Shown here piece after piece: positions 31,338 to 41,068 of a stretch of 64,000 nucleotides of DNA. This stretch comes from Sneathiella limimaris. Its GTDB lineage: Bacteria; Pseudomonadota; Alphaproteobacteria; Sneathiellales; Sneathiellaceae. Location: the NCBI RefSeq assembly GCF_012932565.1, contig NZ_JABBYJ010000001.1, positions 2,418,001-2,482,000 on the forward strand, read 5' to 3'. The position numbers and the translations under genes were made by a program. A model generated the notes under the pieces. That model saw only the letters and a list, made by a program, of their open reading frames with translations. It searched no databases and was not told where the DNA came from. How positions within the stretch are numbered: the stretch's first letter is position 1; every line of letters begins with the position of its first letter.

Positions 31338-32108
31338 ATGAAAAAACAGTCTTCTAGCCAATCCTCGGAATCAGAAAATCAGGATCACCTGAAAGCACTG
31401 GTGGAACCAGCACCAAAAGTGGGGCTTCTCGCACGACTTAGAACCTATTTCCTGACAGGCATTGTGATCACCGCGCCGATCGGGATTACGGTGTATCTCA
31501 CATATGTTTTTGTTGATTTTGTTGATGCCAATGTGACGCCGCTGATCCCGGCTCGCTATAATCCAGAAACCTATCTACCCTTCAGTGTGCCTGGCCTAGG
31601 ATTATTTGTTGCTGTGCTGGTTTTAATTCTAATCGGGTTCTTCACAGCTAATTTCTTGGGGCGTTCCCTCCTTCATTTTGGGGAGAGAATTGTGAGTCGG
31701 ATGCCGGTCATCCGGACGATCTATACTGCTCTAAAGCAAATAATAGAAACAGTTTTGGCTCAATCCAGTACGTCATTTCGGGATGTTGTTTTAATCGAAT
31801 ATCCCCGAAAAGGTCTTTGGGCGATTGCCTTTGTGACAAGTGAGGCAGAAGGCGAGATCGCTGATTTGGATGATGAAGCCATGATCAGTGTATTTTTGCC
31901 AACAACCCCGAACCCGACTTCCGGTTTTCTTTTGTTTGTTCCAAAGAAGGACCTTAAGTTCCTTCACATGTCGGTGGAAGAGGGGGTAAAACTGGTTATT
32001 TCTGCAGGCATGATCTGGCCCGAAGAAGGTGAGGCTGGAGCTCCTGAAAACAAAAAGATCCAAAAGCCTGCAGAGGAGGAAAAATCTAACCAGACTGCAG
32101 ATACTTAA
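31338..32108 (+). CDS. DUF502 family membrane protein
   Basis: About 256 residues with two membrane helices (about 35-58 and 85-108) and the DUF502 core: LRTYFLTGIVITAPIGITVYL, VSRMPVIRTIYTALKQI and PTTPNPTSGFLLFVP. The family is common in Proteobacteria and of unknown function. ATG 31338 is preferred over the TTG at 31332. It is divergent from the histidine kinase gene, and its last 23 bp overlap the convergent end of recG. Confidence 0.88.
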   Translation: MKKQSSSQSSESENQDHLKALVEPAPKVGLLARLRTYFLTGIVITAPIGITVYLTYVFVDFVDANVTPLIPARYNPETYLPFSVPGLGLFVAVLVLILIGFFTANFLGRSLLHFGERIVSRMPVIRTIYTALKQIIETVLAQSSTSFRDVVLIEYPRKGLWAIAFVTSEAEGEIADLDDEAMISVFLPTTPNPTSGFLLFVPKKDLKFLHMSVEEGVKLVISAGMIWPEEGEAGAPENKKIQKPAEEEKSNQTADT

Positions 32109-34179
32109 TAGCGCTGTCCCGTTCAAATAAATAAAGCAAAGTTCGGATGGCGGAACCACGGCTTGTCGAAAGTTTAGGATCTTGCTGTAAAAAGGATCGG
32201 GCGTCATCACGGGCAATTTCCAGTAGACGTCCATGCAATTGTAAATCCGCTAACTTAAATTCAGGAAGTCCGCTTTGACGGGTGCCTAACAATTCTCCTG
32301 CACCCCTTAGCCTCAGGTCTTCTTCAGCAATTCGAAAGCCATCTTCGGTCTCTCGCATAATTTTTAATCGGGCTTTTTGTGTTTCACCCAGAGGGCCGGA
32401 GTAGATCAGCAAACAAGTACCTGCGAGCCCCCCACGCCCGACACGCCCTCTTAATTGATGTAATTGGGCAAGTCCGAACCGTTCGGAATGCTCGATGATC
32501 ATGACGGTTGCCTCAGGAACATCAACCCCAACCTCAATCACTGTTGTCGCGACTAGGATTTGGATGTCACCATTCTTAAAGGCTTCCATTACGGCTTCTT
32601 TTTCGTCGCCCTTCATGCGGCCATGAACAAGGCCAACCTTTTCAGGATAGAGATGGGATAAATAGCGAAAGCGTTCCTCAGCTGCGGCCAGATCTGACAC
32701 TTCACTTTCCTCGACAAGTGGGCAAACCCAATAAATTCGCTCGTTTACCTCCAATTTCCTCTGAAGTCCGGTTGCGAGGTCCTCGAGCCTTTCAACAGGT
32801 ATGGCTCGAGTTTCAACTGGTTTTCTGCCCGGTGGTTTTTCTGCGATAATTGAAACGTCCATATCCCCATAGGCCGTAAGCGCCAAGGTTCTGGGAATTG
32901 GCGTTGCGGTCATTACGAGGACATCTACGCCCCCATGTTCTGGTTTTCCTTTGGCACTTAAAGAGAGACGTTGATGTACACCGAAGCGATGTTGTTCATC
33001 GATGATCGCTAAGCCAAGGTCCTGATAGACCACATCTTCTTGAAATAATGCGTGTGTCCCCACTAAAATATCAATCTCACCAGCTGAAAGGCGATCAAGG
33101 ATTTCAGCTCTTTTCTTCCCTTTAATTCGTCCTGTGAGAAGTTCAATTTTTAACCCGGCTGCATCTGTAAAAGGTTTCAAGGAATTGAGATGCTGGCGGG
33201 CTAAAATTTCTGTTGGTGCCATAAACGCTGCTTGTGCGCCAGATCCCACAGCTTTGCCAATTGCCATCAAGGCAACAGCTGTTTTTCCGCTTCCCACATC
33301 GCCCTGTACTAGGCGAAGCATGCGATATGGAGACTGCATATCCGCGAATATTTCGGACAAAGCACTATTTTGTGCATGGGTCAGCGTATAAGGTAAAGCC
33401 TGCTCCAATCGTTCGATGACATCAGCACCGCCTGTCAGGGAGCGCCCTTTCTTACGTTTCATGCTGTTTCTAACCAGCTCCAGTGCGATTTGATTTGAGA
33501 GCAGCTCATCATAGGCAAGGCGTTGTCGTTCGGGATCGTCTGGCTCCAGATCTGCATCTGTTTTCGGGTGATGAGATGCCTCTAATGCTTCCTTCCAGGA
33601 CTTCCAACCTTCTCTGGTGACGAGATTTGGATCAATCCATTCAGGCAATTGGGGGATCAGTTTTTCAGCACTACTTATGATTTTCAGGAGAACATTGTTG
33701 CTGACACCGGCTGTCAAAGGATAGACGGCTTCTTCGGTATCAATGGAACCCGCATCGCCAAGAGCTAAAATGTGATCGGGATGCGTCATCTGATAACTGC
33801 CGGAATATTCTTCTAGTTTCCCTGAAATTAATCTCGGTTCGCCAATGGGTAATTGTCGTTTCAGGTAATCCTCTCGCCCGTTAAAGAAGGTTAAGGTCAG
33901 AGGGCGATCATTTACATCTACTGTTATTCTGTATGGAACCCGTCGATTTCGAGAAGGGTAATGTTGGCGGGCCGTTCCTGTTATAATGACTTGCTGGTCA
34001 AGGAACTGTTCGTCCAATTGTTCAATTCTAGTCCGTTTTGTCAGTCCGCTGGGCAAATGGAAAAGAAGGTCCATGACATGTTCGCCAGCAAGCTTTTCCA
34101 GCGCTATTTTCAAGCGAGCCCCAACACCCTTTAGGCTATCTGTTGGTTTAAAAAGAGGGAAAAGGATTTCTGGCCGCAT
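32086..34179 (-). CDS. recG: ATP-dependent DNA helicase RecG
   Basis: Superfamily 2 helicase that remodels stalled forks and Holliday junctions. 697 residues: wedge/OB domain (about 50-170), Walker A GDVGSGKTAVAL, DEQHRFG (DExH), motif III TATPIPRT, motif VI QLRGRVGRGG, and the C-terminal TRQSGLPEFKLADL unique to RecG. The first Met is well placed. It overlaps the DUF502 gene by 23 bp at the 3' end. Confidence 0.97.
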   Translation of the reverse strand: MRPEILFPLFKPTDSLKGVGARLKIALEKLAGEHVMDLLFHLPSGLTKRTRIEQLDEQFLDQQVIITGTARQHYPSRNRRVPYRITVDVNDRPLTLTFFNGREDYLKRQLPIGEPRLISGKLEEYSGSYQMTHPDHILALGDAGSIDTEEAVYPLTAGVSNNVLLKIISSAEKLIPQLPEWIDPNLVTREGWKSWKEALEASHHPKTDADLEPDDPERQRLAYDELLSNQIALELVRNSMKRKKGRSLTGGADVIERLEQALPYTLTHAQNSALSEIFADMQSPYRMLRLVQGDVGSGKTAVALMAIGKAVGSGAQAAFMAPTEILARQHLNSLKPFTDAAGLKIELLTGRIKGKKRAEILDRLSAGEIDILVGTHALFQEDVVYQDLGLAIIDEQHRFGVHQRLSLSAKGKPEHGGVDVLVMTATPIPRTLALTAYGDMDVSIIAEKPPGRKPVETRAIPVERLEDLATGLQRKLEVNERIYWVCPLVEESEVSDLAAAEERFRYLSHLYPEKVGLVHGRMKGDEKEAVMEAFKNGDIQILVATTVIEVGVDVPEATVMIIEHSERFGLAQLHQLRGRVGRGGLAGTCLLIYSGPLGETQKARLKIMRETEDGFRIAEEDLRLRGAGELLGTRQSGLPEFKLADLQLHGRLLEIARDDARSFLQQDPKLSTSRGSAIRTLLYLFERDSAIKYLQSG

Positions 34180-34331: not shown

Positions 34332-34631
34332 ATGACTGATACTGAAGAAACAGCCATTCGTCGCAAGCGTCTGCTCCATCGTTCTCGATATACCGGGATG
34401 AAGGAAACGGATCTAATGCTGGGTCGTTTTGCAAATAAATACATCCAAAAATTCTCTGATGAAGAATTGGATATATATGAAAAATTGCTTCAGGCAGGGG
34501 ATCCGAGCATTTATGCTTGGGCTGTCGGTCGTGAGGAGATTCCCGCGGAATATGACACCTCTGTTATGCAGAAATTGAAAAATTTTGCTATTTTTGAGCA
34601 CGATCCCGCAAATCCGAACGATGACAATTGA
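34332..34631 (+). CDS. sdhE: Succinate dehydrogenase assembly factor SdhE
   Basis: 99-residue SdhE/SDH5-family protein needed to attach FAD covalently to SdhA. The family core is RRKRLLHRSRYTGMKETDLMLG, with the conserved RYTGM-ETD motif, and LLQAGDPSIYAWAVG. GGAAAGG lies about 6 bases upstream of the ATG. The mfd ATG lies inside its last codons (11-bp overlap), so translation is probably coupled; this pair recurs in alphaproteobacteria. recG is divergent from it. Confidence 0.92.
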   Translation: MTDTEETAIRRKRLLHRSRYTGMKETDLMLGRFANKYIQKFSDEELDIYEKLLQAGDPSIYAWAVGREEIPAEYDTSVMQKLKNFAIFEHDPANPNDDN

Positions 34632-37600
34632 TCCGACGATTCAGCCGATTGTCGCGCGTCTAACTGATGCTGAGAAAGGCAATCTTGACCTCACCATAGA
34701 AGCCGTCCCAGAAGGCTATGACGCGTATATTCTAGGTAAATGTACCAAGGATGTTTCCTCAGATATCTTGTATATCTTACGCGAAGATGTCCGAATGGCT
34801 GCCACTGAGGAGGCTCTAAGGTTTTTTGATCCCTCACTGGATGTGATCAAACTCCCAGCGTGGGATTGCCTGCCTTATGATCGTGTGTCCCCGAATGCCG
34901 AAGTCGTCGCGCATCGGATGAATGCGCTGGCTGAAATTACCAAGCCCTGGAGCCGGCCACGTATTATTTTGACAACTGTGAACGCTCTATTGCAGCGTTT
35001 GCCCAGCCCTGAAACCGTTAAGGCAGCACATTTTGATGTGAAAAAAGGCGATAAGCTGGATTTGCAGGAATTGACTGAATTCCTTGTAGCCAACGGCTTT
35101 TCCCGCATCGGGACTGTTATGGAGCCAGGTGAATTCGCTATCCGTGGCGGCTTGATTGATATATTTCCTCCTGGCGAGGATATGCCAGTTCGTTTAGATC
35201 TCTTTGGTGATCAGGTTGATGGTATTCGTAAGTTTGACCCAATTTCACAGCGCTCGCAGGAGCGTATTGAAAAGGTTGAGTTTATTGCAGCAACAGAGTT
35301 TCTGCTGAATGAAGATGCAGTTAGTCGGTTTCGGAGTGGTTATCGGGAACTGTTTGGCGCTACCAGTCGGGATGACGCCCTATATGAAGCGGTAACCGAG
35401 AAGAGAAAAATTACCGGTATGGAGCATTGGCTCCCGCTATTTCATGAAGAGATGGCGACCTTGCTCGACTTTCTTCCCAATTCTCTGGTTTTCTTTGATC
35501 ACTTATTTGAGGAAAGTCTGGAAGCCCGGTTAGACACGGTAGCAGATTATTACGATGCTCGTGTAACCGCATTGAAAAGCGGTGATGCTGACTATAAACC
35601 ATTACCCCCAGAGCATCTTTATCTGGATAAAGAAGAATTTCAGAGGCGGATCTCCACCAGGGCAACATGCCATTTCAGTCCTTATCGGTCCGGATCAATG
35701 GCAGAGGGAATTATGGACGCCCATGGGCATGAGGGACGGGATTTTGCGCCTGAACGGAATCGGCCTGATGCCAACGTTTATGAATTCCTGAAAGAACATA
35801 TCAAATCCCAAAGGGACGCCAAAAGGGCGGTTATTCTCAGTCATTTTACCAAAGGCTCTCGTGACCGGAACAAGACCGTTCTTGCTGATCATGGGGTTCA
35901 AAATCTAAAAGAAATCGAAAACTTCAAAGATTTAGGGGCTAAACCTGACCCAACAGCGGTTTATCTGTCTGTATTTGGTCTAGAAAAAGGCTTTGAGACC
36001 CCAAATTTTGTAGTGATTGGGGAACAGGATGTTCTGGGCGATCGCCTTGTACGCCCACGGAAATCCTCCCGCAAGAACGATAATTTTATTGCTGAGGCCT
36101 CACAGTTAAATGCTGGTGATTACGTTGTTCATGTTGATCATGGAATTGCGCAATATGAAGGCCTTAAAACCATCGATATTTCCGGTGCGCCTCATGATTG
36201 TGTGACGCTCCTATATGATGGTGGCGACAAGATTTACCTGCCTGTTGAAAATATCGAAATGCTCTCGCGATATGGCGGTGCAGATAGTCAGGCGACGCTG
36301 GATCGACTAGGGGGTTCCGGCTGGCAAGCGCGGAAAGCCAAGCTGAAGAAAAAGGTCATGGAAATGGCCGATCAGTTGATCAAGATTGCCGCAGCGAGAA
36401 TGCTTCGAAAAGGCGATCGAATTTTACCTCCTGTGGGTGCCTATTCAGAATTTTGTGCAGGCTTCCCGTTTGAGGAAACAGATGACCAGTTAAAAGCCAT
36501 TGATGATGTGATGAATGATCTCTCATCTGGCAAACCGATGGATCGGTTGGTTTGCGGTGATGTTGGGTTTGGCAAAACAGAAGTCGCATTAAGAGCGGCC
36601 TTCGTTGCTGCTATGGCTGGAAAGCAGGTGGCTGTTGTGACCCCAACAACCCTGCTATCGCGGCAGCATTATAAAACATTTGCCCAGCGCTTTAGCGGTT
36701 TACCGGTCAATGTGGTGCAACTCTCCAGAATGGTGACCACTAAAGAAGCCAATCAATCAAAAGCAGGCCTCGCTAATGGTCAGGTTGATATCGTTGTAGG
36801 AACTCATGCGCTTCTTGGTAAATCTGTAAATTTCAAGAACCTGGGTCTTGTTATCGTGGATGAGGAACAGCATTTTGGTGTTGCGCATAAAGAGCGCCTG
36901 AAGGAAATGCGGGCGGATCTTCATGTTCTCACATTAACTGCGACTCCAATCCCTAGAACCTTGCAACTGGCCATGACTGGTATTCGTGATCTCTCTATCA
37001 TTGCAACGCCGCCAGTAGATCGCCTTGCCATTAGAACTTTTGTTCTCCCATTCGATCCCGTTGTAATTCGGGAAGCTCTTCTTCGTGAACATTATAGAGG
37101 AGGGCAGAGTTTCTTTGTATGTCCACGCTTGAGTGATCTGACTGAAGTCGGGAAATACCTGAGCGAACATATTCCTGAAGTTAAGTTTGTGACGGCACAT
37201 GGCCAGATGCCGGCCAAAGAACTTGATGACGTCATGAACGCATTTTATGACGGCCGGTATGATGTGTTGGTAGCGACGAATATTGTGGAATCCGGTCTGG
37301 ATATCCCGAGCGCCAATACATTGGTGACTTACCGGGCGGATATGTTTGGCCTGGCGCAGCTTTATCAGATTAGGGGACGAATTGGCCGTTCTAAAACGCG
37401 CGCATATGCCTATTTGACTTTGCCGCCGCGCAAAAAACCGACAGAAGCCGCCGAAAAAAGGCTTAGAGTCTTGCAGTCCCTAGACACACTTGGTGCCGGC
37501 TTTACGCTCGCTAGCCATGATCTGGATATCCGCGGAGCTGGGAACCTGCTGGGTGATGAGCAATCTGGTCATGTAAAAGAGGTTGGCTTTGAGCTCTATC

Positions 37601-38127
37601 AGGAAATGCTCGAGGAAGCTGTCGCCAATGCCCGTCAATCTGGAATGGATGGGGGCGAAGAAGTTGAGGAGAAATGGTCACCAACCATCAATATTGGGAC
37701 GTCAGTTCTTATTCCTGAAGATTATGTGGCTGATTTGAGTGTTCGGATGGATCTTTACAGGCGAATTGCTATTCAAGAAACTGCGGAAGAAATTGATGCC
37801 TTTGCTGTTGAATTGGTGGATCGATTTGGGAAACTACCAGAAGAGGTTGAGCATCTGCTTGAGGTAATGACGATCAAACAATATTGCCGACAGGCAAACA
37901 TTGAGAAGATTGATGCTGGGGCGAAAGGTGCGGTCCTGACGTTCCGCAATAACAGCTTTGATAATCCTGCCGGTCTGGTTGCCTATATCTCAAAGCAGCC
38001 CGGTTCGGCGAAACTGCGGGCAGACCATAAAATGGTCTATACACGTAGTTGGGCCCATCCAGAGGACCGGCTTCGCGGTGTTAGGGATTTGGTTCGGGAT
38101 TTATCTAAGATTGCCGTATCGGATTAG
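34621..38127 (+). CDS. mfd: Transcription-repair coupling factor
   Basis: ATP-dependent translocase that removes RNA polymerase stalled at damage and recruits UvrA. From ATG 34621 it is 1168 residues. The order is the UvrB-homology region (FDPSLDVIKLPAWDCLPYD, RIGTVMEPGEFAIRGGLID), the RNA-polymerase-interaction domain (DYVVHVDHGIAQYEGL), then RecG-like helicase motifs (CGDVGFGKTEVALRA, VDEEQHFG, TATPIPRTLQLA, QIRGRIGRS) and the C-terminal D7 region. A start at 34585 is open but lies well inside sdhE and is less likely. Confidence 0.97.
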   Translation: MTIDPTIQPIVARLTDAEKGNLDLTIEAVPEGYDAYILGKCTKDVSSDILYILREDVRMAATEEALRFFDPSLDVIKLPAWDCLPYDRVSPNAEVVAHRMNALAEITKPWSRPRIILTTVNALLQRLPSPETVKAAHFDVKKGDKLDLQELTEFLVANGFSRIGTVMEPGEFAIRGGLIDIFPPGEDMPVRLDLFGDQVDGIRKFDPISQRSQERIEKVEFIAATEFLLNEDAVSRFRSGYRELFGATSRDDALYEAVTEKRKITGMEHWLPLFHEEMATLLDFLPNSLVFFDHLFEESLEARLDTVADYYDARVTALKSGDADYKPLPPEHLYLDKEEFQRRISTRATCHFSPYRSGSMAEGIMDAHGHEGRDFAPERNRPDANVYEFLKEHIKSQRDAKRAVILSHFTKGSRDRNKTVLADHGVQNLKEIENFKDLGAKPDPTAVYLSVFGLEKGFETPNFVVIGEQDVLGDRLVRPRKSSRKNDNFIAEASQLNAGDYVVHVDHGIAQYEGLKTIDISGAPHDCVTLLYDGGDKIYLPVENIEMLSRYGGADSQATLDRLGGSGWQARKAKLKKKVMEMADQLIKIAAARMLRKGDRILPPVGAYSEFCAGFPFEETDDQLKAIDDVMNDLSSGKPMDRLVCGDVGFGKTEVALRAAFVAAMAGKQVAVVTPTTLLSRQHYKTFAQRFSGLPVNVVQLSRMVTTKEANQSKAGLANGQVDIVVGTHALLGKSVNFKNLGLVIVDEEQHFGVAHKERLKEMRADLHVLTLTATPIPRTLQLAMTGIRDLSIIATPPVDRLAIRTFVLPFDPVVIREALLREHYRGGQSFFVCPRLSDLTEVGKYLSEHIPEVKFVTAHGQMPAKELDDVMNAFYDGRYDVLVATNIVESGLDIPSANTLVTYRADMFGLAQLYQIRGRIGRSKTRAYAYLTLPPRKKPTEAAEKRLRVLQSLDTLGAGFTLASHDLDIRGAGNLLGDEQSGHVKEVGFELYQEMLEEAVANARQSGMDGGEEVEEKWSPTINIGTSVLIPEDYVADLSVRMDLYRRIAIQETAEEIDAFAVELVDRFGKLPEEVEHLLEVMTIKQYCRQANIEKIDAGAKGAVLTFRNNSFDNPAGLVAYISKQPGSAKLRADHKMVYTRSWAHPEDRLRGVRDLVRDLSKIAVSD

Positions 38128-38774
38128 GGAGTAGGGGACGTTGAGCCTGCTTCCTGTTCGATCCGGTCGATGACTTGAAGAAAAATGTCACTGTCCTGCG
38201 CACCGGAGAGCGCATATTTTTCATCAACAATAAAGAATGGCACGCCGCTGACACCCATTTGCCGTGCTCTTTGATCTTCTGCCGCGACCAGTTCCATATC
38301 TCGATCGCTAGCTAGCAGATCAGCCACAATTTCTGCGTCCATACCAGCTTCTTTTGCAGCGTCCACCAACACAGAAGTATCACCCAAATCCTTGCCTTCA
38401 ATGAAGAAGTTACGGAATAAAATTTCAACGACTTCGTCCTGAACACCAGCAGTCCCTGCCCATTTGATCAGGCGATGGGAATTCAATGTATTAGGAGAGC
38501 GTTTGATTTTGCCAAATTCCAGATCCAAACCGACATTTTTTGCCGCGGCAGCAACATTTTCATAAAGCTCTTTTGCCCGCTCTTCACTTCCAAATTTTTG
38601 GGCAATAAACTTTTTCCGATCAGCTCCTTCCTTCGGCATGTCAGGATGGAGTTGGAACGGGTGCCAATAGACTTCGAAGTCTAAGTCGGGCCGAGCTTCC
38701 ATAGCTTTTTCAAGCTTGCGTTTCCCGATAAGGCACCATGGACATACAGTATCTGAAATTATATCTATTCTCAT
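38124..38774 (-). CDS. DsbA-family oxidoreductase (FrnE-like)
   Basis: 216-residue thioredoxin-fold protein with active site CPWC (DTVCPWCLIGKRKLE) and the cis-Pro loop GVSGVPFFIVDEKYALSGAQ. No signal peptide, so it is cytoplasmic, like the FrnE/2-hydroxychromene-2-carboxylate isomerase-related group. Its stop codon overlaps the mfd stop (TTAG, convergent). It could reduce or isomerise disulfides, or act on small molecules; not resolved. Confidence 0.88.
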   Translation of the reverse strand: MRIDIISDTVCPWCLIGKRKLEKAMEARPDLDFEVYWHPFQLHPDMPKEGADRKKFIAQKFGSEERAKELYENVAAAAKNVGLDLEFGKIKRSPNTLNSHRLIKWAGTAGVQDEVVEILFRNFFIEGKDLGDTSVLVDAAKEAGMDAEIVADLLASDRDMELVAAEDQRARQMGVSGVPFFIVDEKYALSGAQDSDIFLQVIDRIEQEAGSTSPTP

Positions 38775-38838: not shown

Positions 38839-40134
38839 TCAACACTCCATGTTGAAAGGTGACGTTATCGCTCGTTCAAATAATTCGTTGAGATTATCAT
38901 TGTCCTGAAGTTCCGTAAGCCCGAGATTGATATCGGCAAGAACGGGATCTGCAATGGCGGCAACCGCGAATTGGGTGTTACGGGTAACACCGTAAACACG
39001 GCTTAGCGCAATAAAGGCGTCTTTACGGGAGGTGCCGGGCAGGGCAATCAGGAAGCAGTTACTGCTATATCGACCTGCGAAGTCCTCACCGCGGATTAGA
39101 AAGCCCAGAATATTGCCCATTTGACGCAAGATCTGATCGCCTGCTGGATATCCATGCTCAGCGTTTATTGTGTTCAGGTTGGACAGTGTAACTGCGGCAA
39201 CAGAGAGATGCTTTCCAAGTTTCTGATGATCTTCAATCATCTGTTTCATGTGAGCCTGCACAAATCCATGAGAATAGAGACCTGTCAGCCCATCAGTCAC
39301 GGGAAGTGGTCTGGAGGATTTAAAGAGCTTCTGCATGGAGAAGCGATAATTGGATTGATCAATCAAAAGATTGGTTCGGGCAAAAAGGGAAGCAAGTTCC
39401 TCAGGATACATGACGATATCTGACGCGCCATGGATATAGGATGCTTCCCGATTGTTTTTGTTTTCCAGTACAAAAACGATTGGAAGGTTATAGAGCCGAC
39501 TATCCCCTCGAATATCCATGCAGAGCCGAAAATGGACATCACCTTGACCAGCCCCCAGAAATACAGCGGCGTCAAAAACTCCGCTACGAAGTTCTTCAAC
39601 CACAATATCAGGCGTTGGACAGAGTCTGACTTTGGCCTGACGGTTCAAATGAAGCATGATGTCGCCGACAACAGTACTGTGATTGCCGACAAGCAAAATA
39701 GACTTTTTAGCTTCTTCAGGTGACGGTTCATTAAAGTCATCCTCTGTAAAGCCATATTGAGAAGTTGTGTCACGGCGCCTTTTAAATTCCTGCTTCATCG
39801 TTTGTAAGCGGATAAGTGAAAATGCCCGTGTTTTTAATTCAAGGTCACAAAAACTGAATGGCACGGATTGAATTTCGGAACTGCGGTGATTGTTTCCAAC
39901 GATCAATAGGGGAAAGTCATTTTCCAACATATAGTCCAACAATTCATCAACAGTTTTCAGATCTGTAGAGGATGATGAGATAATCGTTAGATCAAAATCC
40001 GACAAATCTTCCTTGATGGCAGAAACATCAAAGAGTCCTGTTTTGGTGAGGGCAACATTCTCATTTTTGAAGCAATTTCGAATGCGGTCTGCAGGTTCAT
40101 CGGAGATAACGAGGATATTTGCTGTGACTGACAT
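38839..40134 (-). CDS. PleD-like protein with degenerate receiver and GGDEF domains
   Basis: 431 residues from ATG 40134 (GGGAAG 5 bases upstream; a longer frame to 40224 is unsupported). The order is two receiver-like domains (about 5-120 and 150-275) and a GGDEF-like domain (about 285-431, opening TDGLTGLYSHGF). The phospho-acceptor Asp of the first receiver is replaced in DLTIISSSS, and that of the second in FDAAVFLGAG. The GGDEF signature reads RYSSNCF instead of RYGGDEF. So it is unlikely to be phosphorylated or to make c-di-GMP. It most likely acts as a protein or c-di-GMP binding partner. Confidence 0.82.
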   Translation of the reverse strand: MSVTANILVISDEPADRIRNCFKNENVALTKTGLFDVSAIKEDLSDFDLTIISSSSTDLKTVDELLDYMLENDFPLLIVGNNHRSSEIQSVPFSFCDLELKTRAFSLIRLQTMKQEFKRRRDTTSQYGFTEDDFNEPSPEEAKKSILLVGNHSTVVGDIMLHLNRQAKVRLCPTPDIVVEELRSGVFDAAVFLGAGQGDVHFRLCMDIRGDSRLYNLPIVFVLENKNNREASYIHGASDIVMYPEELASLFARTNLLIDQSNYRFSMQKLFKSSRPLPVTDGLTGLYSHGFVQAHMKQMIEDHQKLGKHLSVAAVTLSNLNTINAEHGYPAGDQILRQMGNILGFLIRGEDFAGRYSSNCFLIALPGTSRKDAFIALSRVYGVTRNTQFAVAAIADPVLADINLGLTELQDNDNLNELFERAITSPFNMEC

Positions 40135-40303
40135 GTGACTTCCCAGTTTTTGTGTATCCTGCCAGATAAGCAAAAATTTATTAAAATACTCTTCTACTTT
40201 TGAGGTTATTTGCGGCATCAGCAATGGGGACTTGCTTTTGGGACCTTATATGGAAATGATGGCATCCAATTATCAATAATCATAATTGGGAGAAGAAATC
40301 GCA

Positions 40304-41068
40304 ATGACCCCCACATTTCTTGAAGGCAAACATGCTTTAGTAACAGGTGCATCTTCTGGGCTTGGTTGGCAGTTCGCCTTAACTCTGGCACGGGCTGGTG
40401 CCAAAGTAACGATCGCAGCTCGCAGCACCGATAAACTTGAAGAATTAGCAAAAGAAATTGAAAGTTTTGATGGGCGCGCATTCCCTGTGAGAATGGATGT
40501 TTGCGACAATTTAAGTATTCAAGAAGCCGTTGCCGCCGCAGAAACAGAATTGGGACCTGTGAATATCCTGGTAAACAATTCTGGCGTTAGCGCTCTTAGT
40601 CCTTCTGAAAGCATTAGTGAAGAGGACTTTGACAAGGTCATGGATACGAACGCTAAGGGTGCCTTCTTTGTCGCCCAAGCGGTTGCACAAAGTATGATCA
40701 AGCATGGTCATGGCGGTAAAATCATTAATATCGCCTCAGTCGCTGCCAACCGTGTTCTTCGGCAAAACATTGCTTATTGTATGTCAAAGGCTGCAGTGCA
40801 GCATATGACTTTAGCTTTGGCTGATGAATGGGGACGGTATAAAATTCAGGTCAATGGGATTAATCCCGGGTATATTGTGACTGGTATTAACCGTGACTAT
40901 TGGGAAAGTGAACCTGGTAAGAAGCTCATTCAAAAACTTCCTGGTCGACGAGTTGGTGATCCCGAACATTTAGATGGGGTTTTGCTGCTGCTTGCGGGTC
41001 CAGGTTCCGACTTCATGAACGGAAGTATGATTGAAGTGGATGATGGCTTAACGGCCAGAGGTTTTTAA
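40304..41068 (+). CDS. Short-chain dehydrogenase/reductase
   Basis: Classical SDR of 254 residues: TGASSGLG, VNNSGVSAL (Asn-Asn with Ser in place of the usual Ala), catalytic Ser in NIASVAANR and YCMSKAAVQ. It is 3-ketoacyl reductase-like. ATG 40304 has GGGAG about 11 bases upstream. It is divergent from the PleD-like gene and convergent with the small ORF at 41105. Substrate unknown. Confidence 0.87.
   Translation: MTPTFLEGKHALVTGASSGLGWQFALTLARAGAKVTIAARSTDKLEELAKEIESFDGRAFPVRMDVCDNLSIQEAVAAAETELGPVNILVNNSGVSALSPSESISEEDFDKVMDTNAKGAFFVAQAVAQSMIKHGHGGKIINIASVAANRVLRQNIAYCMSKAAVQHMTLALADEWGRYKIQVNGINPGYIVTGINRDYWESEPGKKLIQKLPGRRVGDPEHLDGVLLLLAGPGSDFMNGSMIEVDDGLTARGF

Follow-up and report, generated by a model that had tools for sequence, protein, structure and literature searches.

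The gene analysed here lies on the minus strand of a 64,000-nucleotide stretch of the Sneathiella limimaris genome (hereafter the window). The listing of open reading frames with their translations showed an uninterrupted frame of 431 codons running from an ATG at 40134 to a stop at 38839-38841, as stated in a first-pass annotation of the locus. The same frame could also be entered at a TTG at 40224, which would yield 461 amino acids; this start appears less likely because all 19 orthologues in the alignment have an in-frame Met where the ATG lies. The features of the gene are as follows.

38839..40134, minus strand: predicted PopA-type REC-REC-GGDEF protein, 431 aa (ORF, Pfam, NCBIfam, AlphaFold model)
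39763..40134, minus strand: REC1 and linker helix, residues 1-124 (AlphaFold model)
39976..39978, minus strand: S53, at the site of the PleD phospho-acceptor D53 (alignment)
39406..39711, minus strand: REC2, residues 142-243 (AlphaFold model, alignment)
38863..39297, minus strand: degenerate GGDEF domain, residues 280-424, C-terminal K..GR[ND] missing (Pfam, alignment)
39082..39093, minus strand: I-site motif R348-G-E-D351 (RxxD), with RxED in 48/48 family rows (alignment)
39052..39066, minus strand: A-site remnant S357-S-N-C-F361, replacing GGEEF (alignment to Caulobacter PleD)
38998..39000, minus strand: R379, equivalent to PleD R390, which we take to be the third I-site residue (alignment)

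On the 431-aa protein, Pfam matched the GGDEF domain (E 2.8e-19) and called neither REC domain. The NCBIfam PleD model aligned with residues 97-423 (E 3e-43), but the score of 148 bits is far below the 474-bit cut-off of that model, and the closest sequence relatives in the PDB were PleD entries (E 1.6e-17). An AlphaFold model built from 19 orthologues (mean pLDDT 83.6) displayed a REC-REC-GGDEF topology. PleD was the top match to this model both in Foldseek (E 2.7e-23; TM 0.45-0.47 among the top rows) and in VIA (Z 21.2, 408 residues, rmsd 11.7). The TM value of about 0.46 and the rmsd of 11.7 indicate that the individual domains match those of PleD and that their arrangement differs. The modelled architecture and the best PDB match thus bear out the initial designation of a PleD-like protein. 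Scanning the gene for internal repeats revealed nothing remarkable. The motif TTAA-N7-TTAA, which we take to resemble a CtrA box, is absent between 38701 and 40600 and found a single time in the whole window; promoter and terminator scans gave signals at or under chance level.

Orthologues were found in 22 of the 24 genomes of the genus, the two misses (G005 and G016) being genomes that are 66% and 56% complete, respectively. The match in G023 is broken off at a contig end. In S. glossodoripedis (G008; L012/L041), a frameshift between REC1 and REC2 splits the orthologue; both an assembly error and a natural split are possible. Alignment A1 excludes L012 (frameshift), L028 (undetermined letters) and L030 (contig end), and the dN/dS comparison excludes L012, L028 and L026. 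In the 12 closest pairs of the 18 orthologues compared, none of which includes the window copy, dN/dS ranged from 0.057 to 0.116, values that are rough since dS reaches up to 1.8. Together, the occurrence of the gene throughout the genus and these ratios agree with the early proposal that the loss of catalytic motifs is selected rather than a sign of decay, and they support the classification of the protein as a conserved, non-decaying pseudo-enzyme.

For comparisons beyond the genus, 48 family rows were aligned, comprising 22 Sneathiella proteins (the window protein included), 21 other relatives and five PopA proteins. Two sequences with in-frame stops (L091/L182 and L105/L185) and one fetched later (L183) stand outside this set. 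In a survey of 385 alphaproteobacterial genomes, a match above the cut, set between 338 and 323 bits, was obtained in 31 (5 Sneathiella and 26 others, under 17 family codes), many of these matches being rows of the model itself. Control by c-di-GMP through a dead PleD paralogue may therefore be much more widespread.

Alignment to Caulobacter PleD places GGEEF at S357-S-N-C-F361, confirming the original reading of the site as SSNCF. A misread position of the motif was discarded since the AlphaFold model has its hairpin at the site given by the alignment, and an active cyclase was rejected on the ground that the A-site residues are gone. The PleD metal-site residue D327 is replaced by T316, and the C-terminal K..GR[ND] motif (K442/R446 in PleD) is absent. 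The equivalents of N335 and of D344 are retained, the latter, presumably a substrate contact, in 46 of the 48 family rows. All three I-site residues of PleD (R359, D362 and R390) have intact counterparts in R348, D351 and R379. The contention that every catalytic signature had been lost therefore holds for GGEEF, D327, K..GR[ND] and the REC1 Asp, but not for the I-site or the N335 and D344 equivalents.

This pattern extends to the family. GG[DE]EF occurs in 3/48 rows, with 39 different strings at the A-site, and the K..GR[ND] motif is found in none of the 48 rows as opposed to all 14 PleD rows. The three I-site residues are retained throughout, in 48/48 family rows (window protein counted) and also in 14/14 PleD rows; the Glu of RxED is present in every family row and in no PleD row (0/14). 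Of the 144 columns of the GGDEF domain, six have zero entropy, those of the I-site among them; A-site positions 357-360 rank 100-113. Residues equivalent to R313, R148 and R178 of Caulobacter PleD, which we take to be secondary c-di-GMP contacts, are not retained across the aligned family and vary among PleDs too. Taken together, the intact I-site indicates c-di-GMP sensing, and the window protein very likely binds this nucleotide.

Some relatives depart from the common pattern. L082 (G216), L083 (G308) and L098 (G139) combine RxED with an intact GGDEF motif and lack the C-terminal K..GR[ND]; DUF1465 is absent in G216 and G308 and present in G139. Outside the 48 rows, L183 (G186) has the I-site Asp replaced (RAEY). 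The two sequences with in-frame stops read RSED at the I-site and GGDQF at the A-site (L091/L182, G246), and RGED and GGEEF (L105/L185, G250).

Both receivers had been described as lacking the phospho-acceptor Asp. The letters are correct and REC1 has indeed lost it (S53); its acidic pair reads S11-D12, with one acid of two left, and the Lys position is occupied by F93. REC2 has no Asp at the position of PleD residue 202, but neither does any of the 14 PleD rows; therefore, only REC1 has lost anything. Of the 20 Sneathiella rows that have a residue at position 53, 13 retain the Asp, as do 4/5 PopA rows. REC1 (residues 1-95) is the least conserved of five regions, with a mean pairwise identity of 0.40 among the 19 orthologues.

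The same genome carries a separate, true PleD beside a DivK-like receiver, in a divK-pleD pair. A tree of 50 rows split 14 PleDs, among them those of both Sneathiella and Caulobacter, from 10 Sneathiella proteins, 21 other relatives and five PopAs with a support of 100/100. Three sequences (L102, L104 and L106) had been labelled PleD from their motifs prior to tree building, and the tree then put them among the PleDs. The Caulobacter reference was G531, whose PleD fragment is 100% identical to the PDB-derived stretch (as is that of G478); its popA was picked by motif and architecture, namely REC-REC-GGDEF, a dead A-site and RVED. Read from a TTG start, the Arg of RVED in Caulobacter PopA is residue 357, presumably the number given to the I-site Arg in the PopA literature. 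The best tree nests PopA within the family, on a long branch (1.93). In AU tests, two groupings were rejected: that of PopA with the PleD of Caulobacteraceae (p 8e-7), and that of the Sneathiella proteins with the Sneathiella PleD (p 8e-35). A third, in which PopA joins the full set of PleDs to the exclusion of the Sneathiella group, was not rejected (p 0.20), and so the tree alone is no proof of the link with PopA. The window protein is 18% identical to Caulobacter PopA in alignment A2; BLASTP gives 23% identity (E 9e-14) across 315 residues. On the best tree, eight losses of GGDEF are required if the motif is never regained; plain parsimony counts three changes.

Gene order provided a further comparison, made over 10 loci with flanks unequal in length. 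The surroundings of the window gene are these.

32086..34179, minus strand: recG; 6/10 loci, not in Caulobacter L148
34299..34628, plus strand: sdhE-like gene (Sdh5, PF03937); 6/10 loci, Caulobacter included
34585..38127, plus strand: mfd, convergent with the dsbA-like gene as in Caulobacter; 7/10 loci
38124..38774, minus strand: gene for a DsbA-like thioredoxin-fold protein (PF01323), directly downstream; 10/10 loci, Caulobacter included
40286..41068, plus strand: short-chain dehydrogenase, divergent neighbour; 7/10 loci, not in L148 (Caulobacter), L152 or L058
45120-47162: methyl-accepting chemotaxis protein (MCPsignal, HAMP)

The order popA, dsbA-like gene, convergent mfd, sdhE-like gene is the same in the window and in Caulobacter L148, where the best match to recG is the helicase part of mfd. 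The chemoreceptor gene reported about 5 kb away exists, and in L039 and L041 the orthologue has a similar one nearby. We discarded it as strong functional evidence, however: four other genes separate it from the window gene, and the neighbours shared with Caulobacter are on the opposite side.

Candidate partners of a PopA-type pathway are encoded in the genome. DUF1465, which we take to be the RcdA family, gave a match with an E value of 2.3e-35 and is present in 22 of the 24 genomes of the genus; among 14 control genomes, it was detected in Caulobacter only. Among the 20 non-Sneathiella genomes examined that carry a family member, 13 have it (13 of 18, plus neither G025 nor G049), compared to 14 of 36 in a comparison set from outside the genus that shares G025 and G049 with the 20. 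Since 7 of the 20 lack DUF1465, a partnership with RcdA is not universal. The genome also has a match to PF10090, presumably ChpT, and a CtrA (L187, G000:C1:1567489-1568091) 80% identical to the typed Caulobacter stretch. The presence of RcdA-, ChpT- and CtrA-type genes makes a ClpXP-adaptor role plausible. We would give somewhat less than even chances to the window protein being an RcdA-linked ClpXP adaptor at the cell pole. In the Caulobacter pathway, the C-terminal Ala-Ala of CtrA is a degron. The Sneathiella protein terminates in SRSAKAS, with no Ala-Ala at its end, a finding that lowers the claim of CtrA delivery and leaves membership in the PopA group unaffected. Delivery of CtrA via its C-terminus is thus doubtful in Sneathiella, and it is unlikely that CtrA is the substrate delivered.

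Considering that the catalytic residues are lost while the I-site is intact, that the descent appears separate from PleD's and that the neighbourhood of popA is shared, we regard the window gene as a likely Sneathiella orthologue of Caulobacter PopA, encoding a non-catalytic I-site receptor for c-di-GMP. We postulate that this PleD paralogue, unable to make c-di-GMP, would use the inhibitory I-site (R348, D351, R379) to bind it. Occupancy of the site would alter the oligomeric state of the protein or its contacts with partners; REC1 and REC2 would serve as docking and dimerisation domains and not as phosphorylation switches. Several observations tell against this reading: the AU result with a p of 0.20, the long branch of PopA and its low identity to the window protein, the choice of the Caulobacter popA by motif and architecture, the RAEY of L183, the D344 equivalent kept in 46/48 rows, the patchy occurrence of DUF1465, the end of the Sneathiella CtrA and the frameshifted S. 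glossodoripedis copy. The pseudo-enzyme label of the first-pass annotation is supported, and its suggestion of a regulator of motility or cell cycle was a fair guess because, in the excerpts available of PMC3764195 and PMC8973945, Caulobacter popA has such roles. What that annotation overlooked is the I-site and the existence of the PopA kind.

The protein could instead be a lineage-specific, degenerate PleD-like receptor that senses c-di-GMP at its I-site with no orthology to PopA and acts on other partners, for example flagellar or chemotaxis proteins. Such an origin would fit with the 18% identity to Caulobacter PopA, with the position of PopA left open by the AU test (p 0.20), with a CtrA devoid of Ala-Ala and with the lack of DUF1465 in 7/20 of the other family-bearing genomes. 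It leaves unaccounted for the gene order in common with popA, the combination of RxED and C-terminal motif loss that PopA also displays, and the nesting of PopA among the family members in the best tree; we thus deem it rather improbable.

Still less credit can be given to a structural scaffold or inhibitory partner forming heterodimers with PleD, in which the I-site residues would be kept for the fold alone. Few columns of the domain are as constrained as R348, D351 and R379, and the Asp can be replaced in an otherwise intact member (L183), even if the REC-REC-GGDEF architecture is common to PleD and the I-site residues are found in 14/14 PleD rows too. Early decay of a gene with no function under selection seems the most improbable of all: the frameshifted S. 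glossodoripedis copy and the fast evolution of REC1 are in its favour, but they are set against orthologues in 22/24 genomes of the genus, dN/dS values of 0.057-0.116 in the 12 closest pairs and an I-site invariant in 48/48 rows. Returning to the PopA reading, one may tentatively extend it to the whole line, which would represent old alphaproteobacterial I-site receptors (RxED, clipped C-terminus) in which fixation of the pocket would have preceded several losses of the catalytic motif, with GGDEF still present in some members. PopA would then not be particular to Caulobacter. The Sneathiella member might deliver substrates other than CtrA. We see this as a possibility on the less likely side.

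Literature searches returned nothing on Sneathiella and c-di-GMP or on PopA and R357G, and the word PopA does not occur in the portion available of PMC2877005. A branch of PopA-like receptors is described in the accessible part of a 2023 review (PMC10333796), which considers that none of those branching with PopA has the GGDEF motif; the accessible part of PMC7200025 lists a Hyphomonas homologue of popA. Novelty is accordingly limited by what these texts already have in print. The Sneathiella protein would belong to the PopA kind of non-catalytic I-site receptors, probably as an orthologue of PopA itself, and that kind is already known; its interest, which is moderate, resides in how widespread the family is and how it evolved. 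Proteins of the family range from those with an intact GGDEF to those with none, natural variants in which the transition from cyclase to receptor can be studied, and the members with an intact GGDEF and a clipped C-terminus (G216, G308, G139) would add to the picture in the available part of PMC10333796.

Among systems already described, Caulobacter crescentus PopA (CC1842), a c-di-GMP effector and ClpXP adaptor, resembles the window protein in its REC-REC-GGDEF architecture, dead A-site, RxED plus third Arg, lack of a C-terminal K..GR[ND], and dsbA-like, mfd and sdhE-like neighbours. It differs by its low identity (18%) and, in 4/5 PopA rows, by the REC1 Asp that the window protein has lost. 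According to the excerpt of PMC12564702, PopA is paralogous to PleD, has a degenerate A-site along with its RxxD I-site, and binds c-di-GMP; those of PMC3764195 and PMC8973945 state that it helps bring CtrA to ClpXP. The Caulobacter pathway differs in that Sneathiella CtrA has no Ala-Ala. PleD, an active diguanylate cyclase, shares the architecture, the domain folds and the I-site; unlike it, the window protein is devoid of GGEEF, the metal-binding Asp327, K..GR[ND] and the REC1 phospho-Asp. Finally, PelD and other receptors with a degenerate GGDEF have in common with it a non-catalytic GGDEF that serves, presumably in the window protein too, as an I-site receptor, but PelD is built as 3xTM-GAF-GGDEF, according to the part available of PMC10333796, in contrast to the REC-REC-GGDEF of the window protein.
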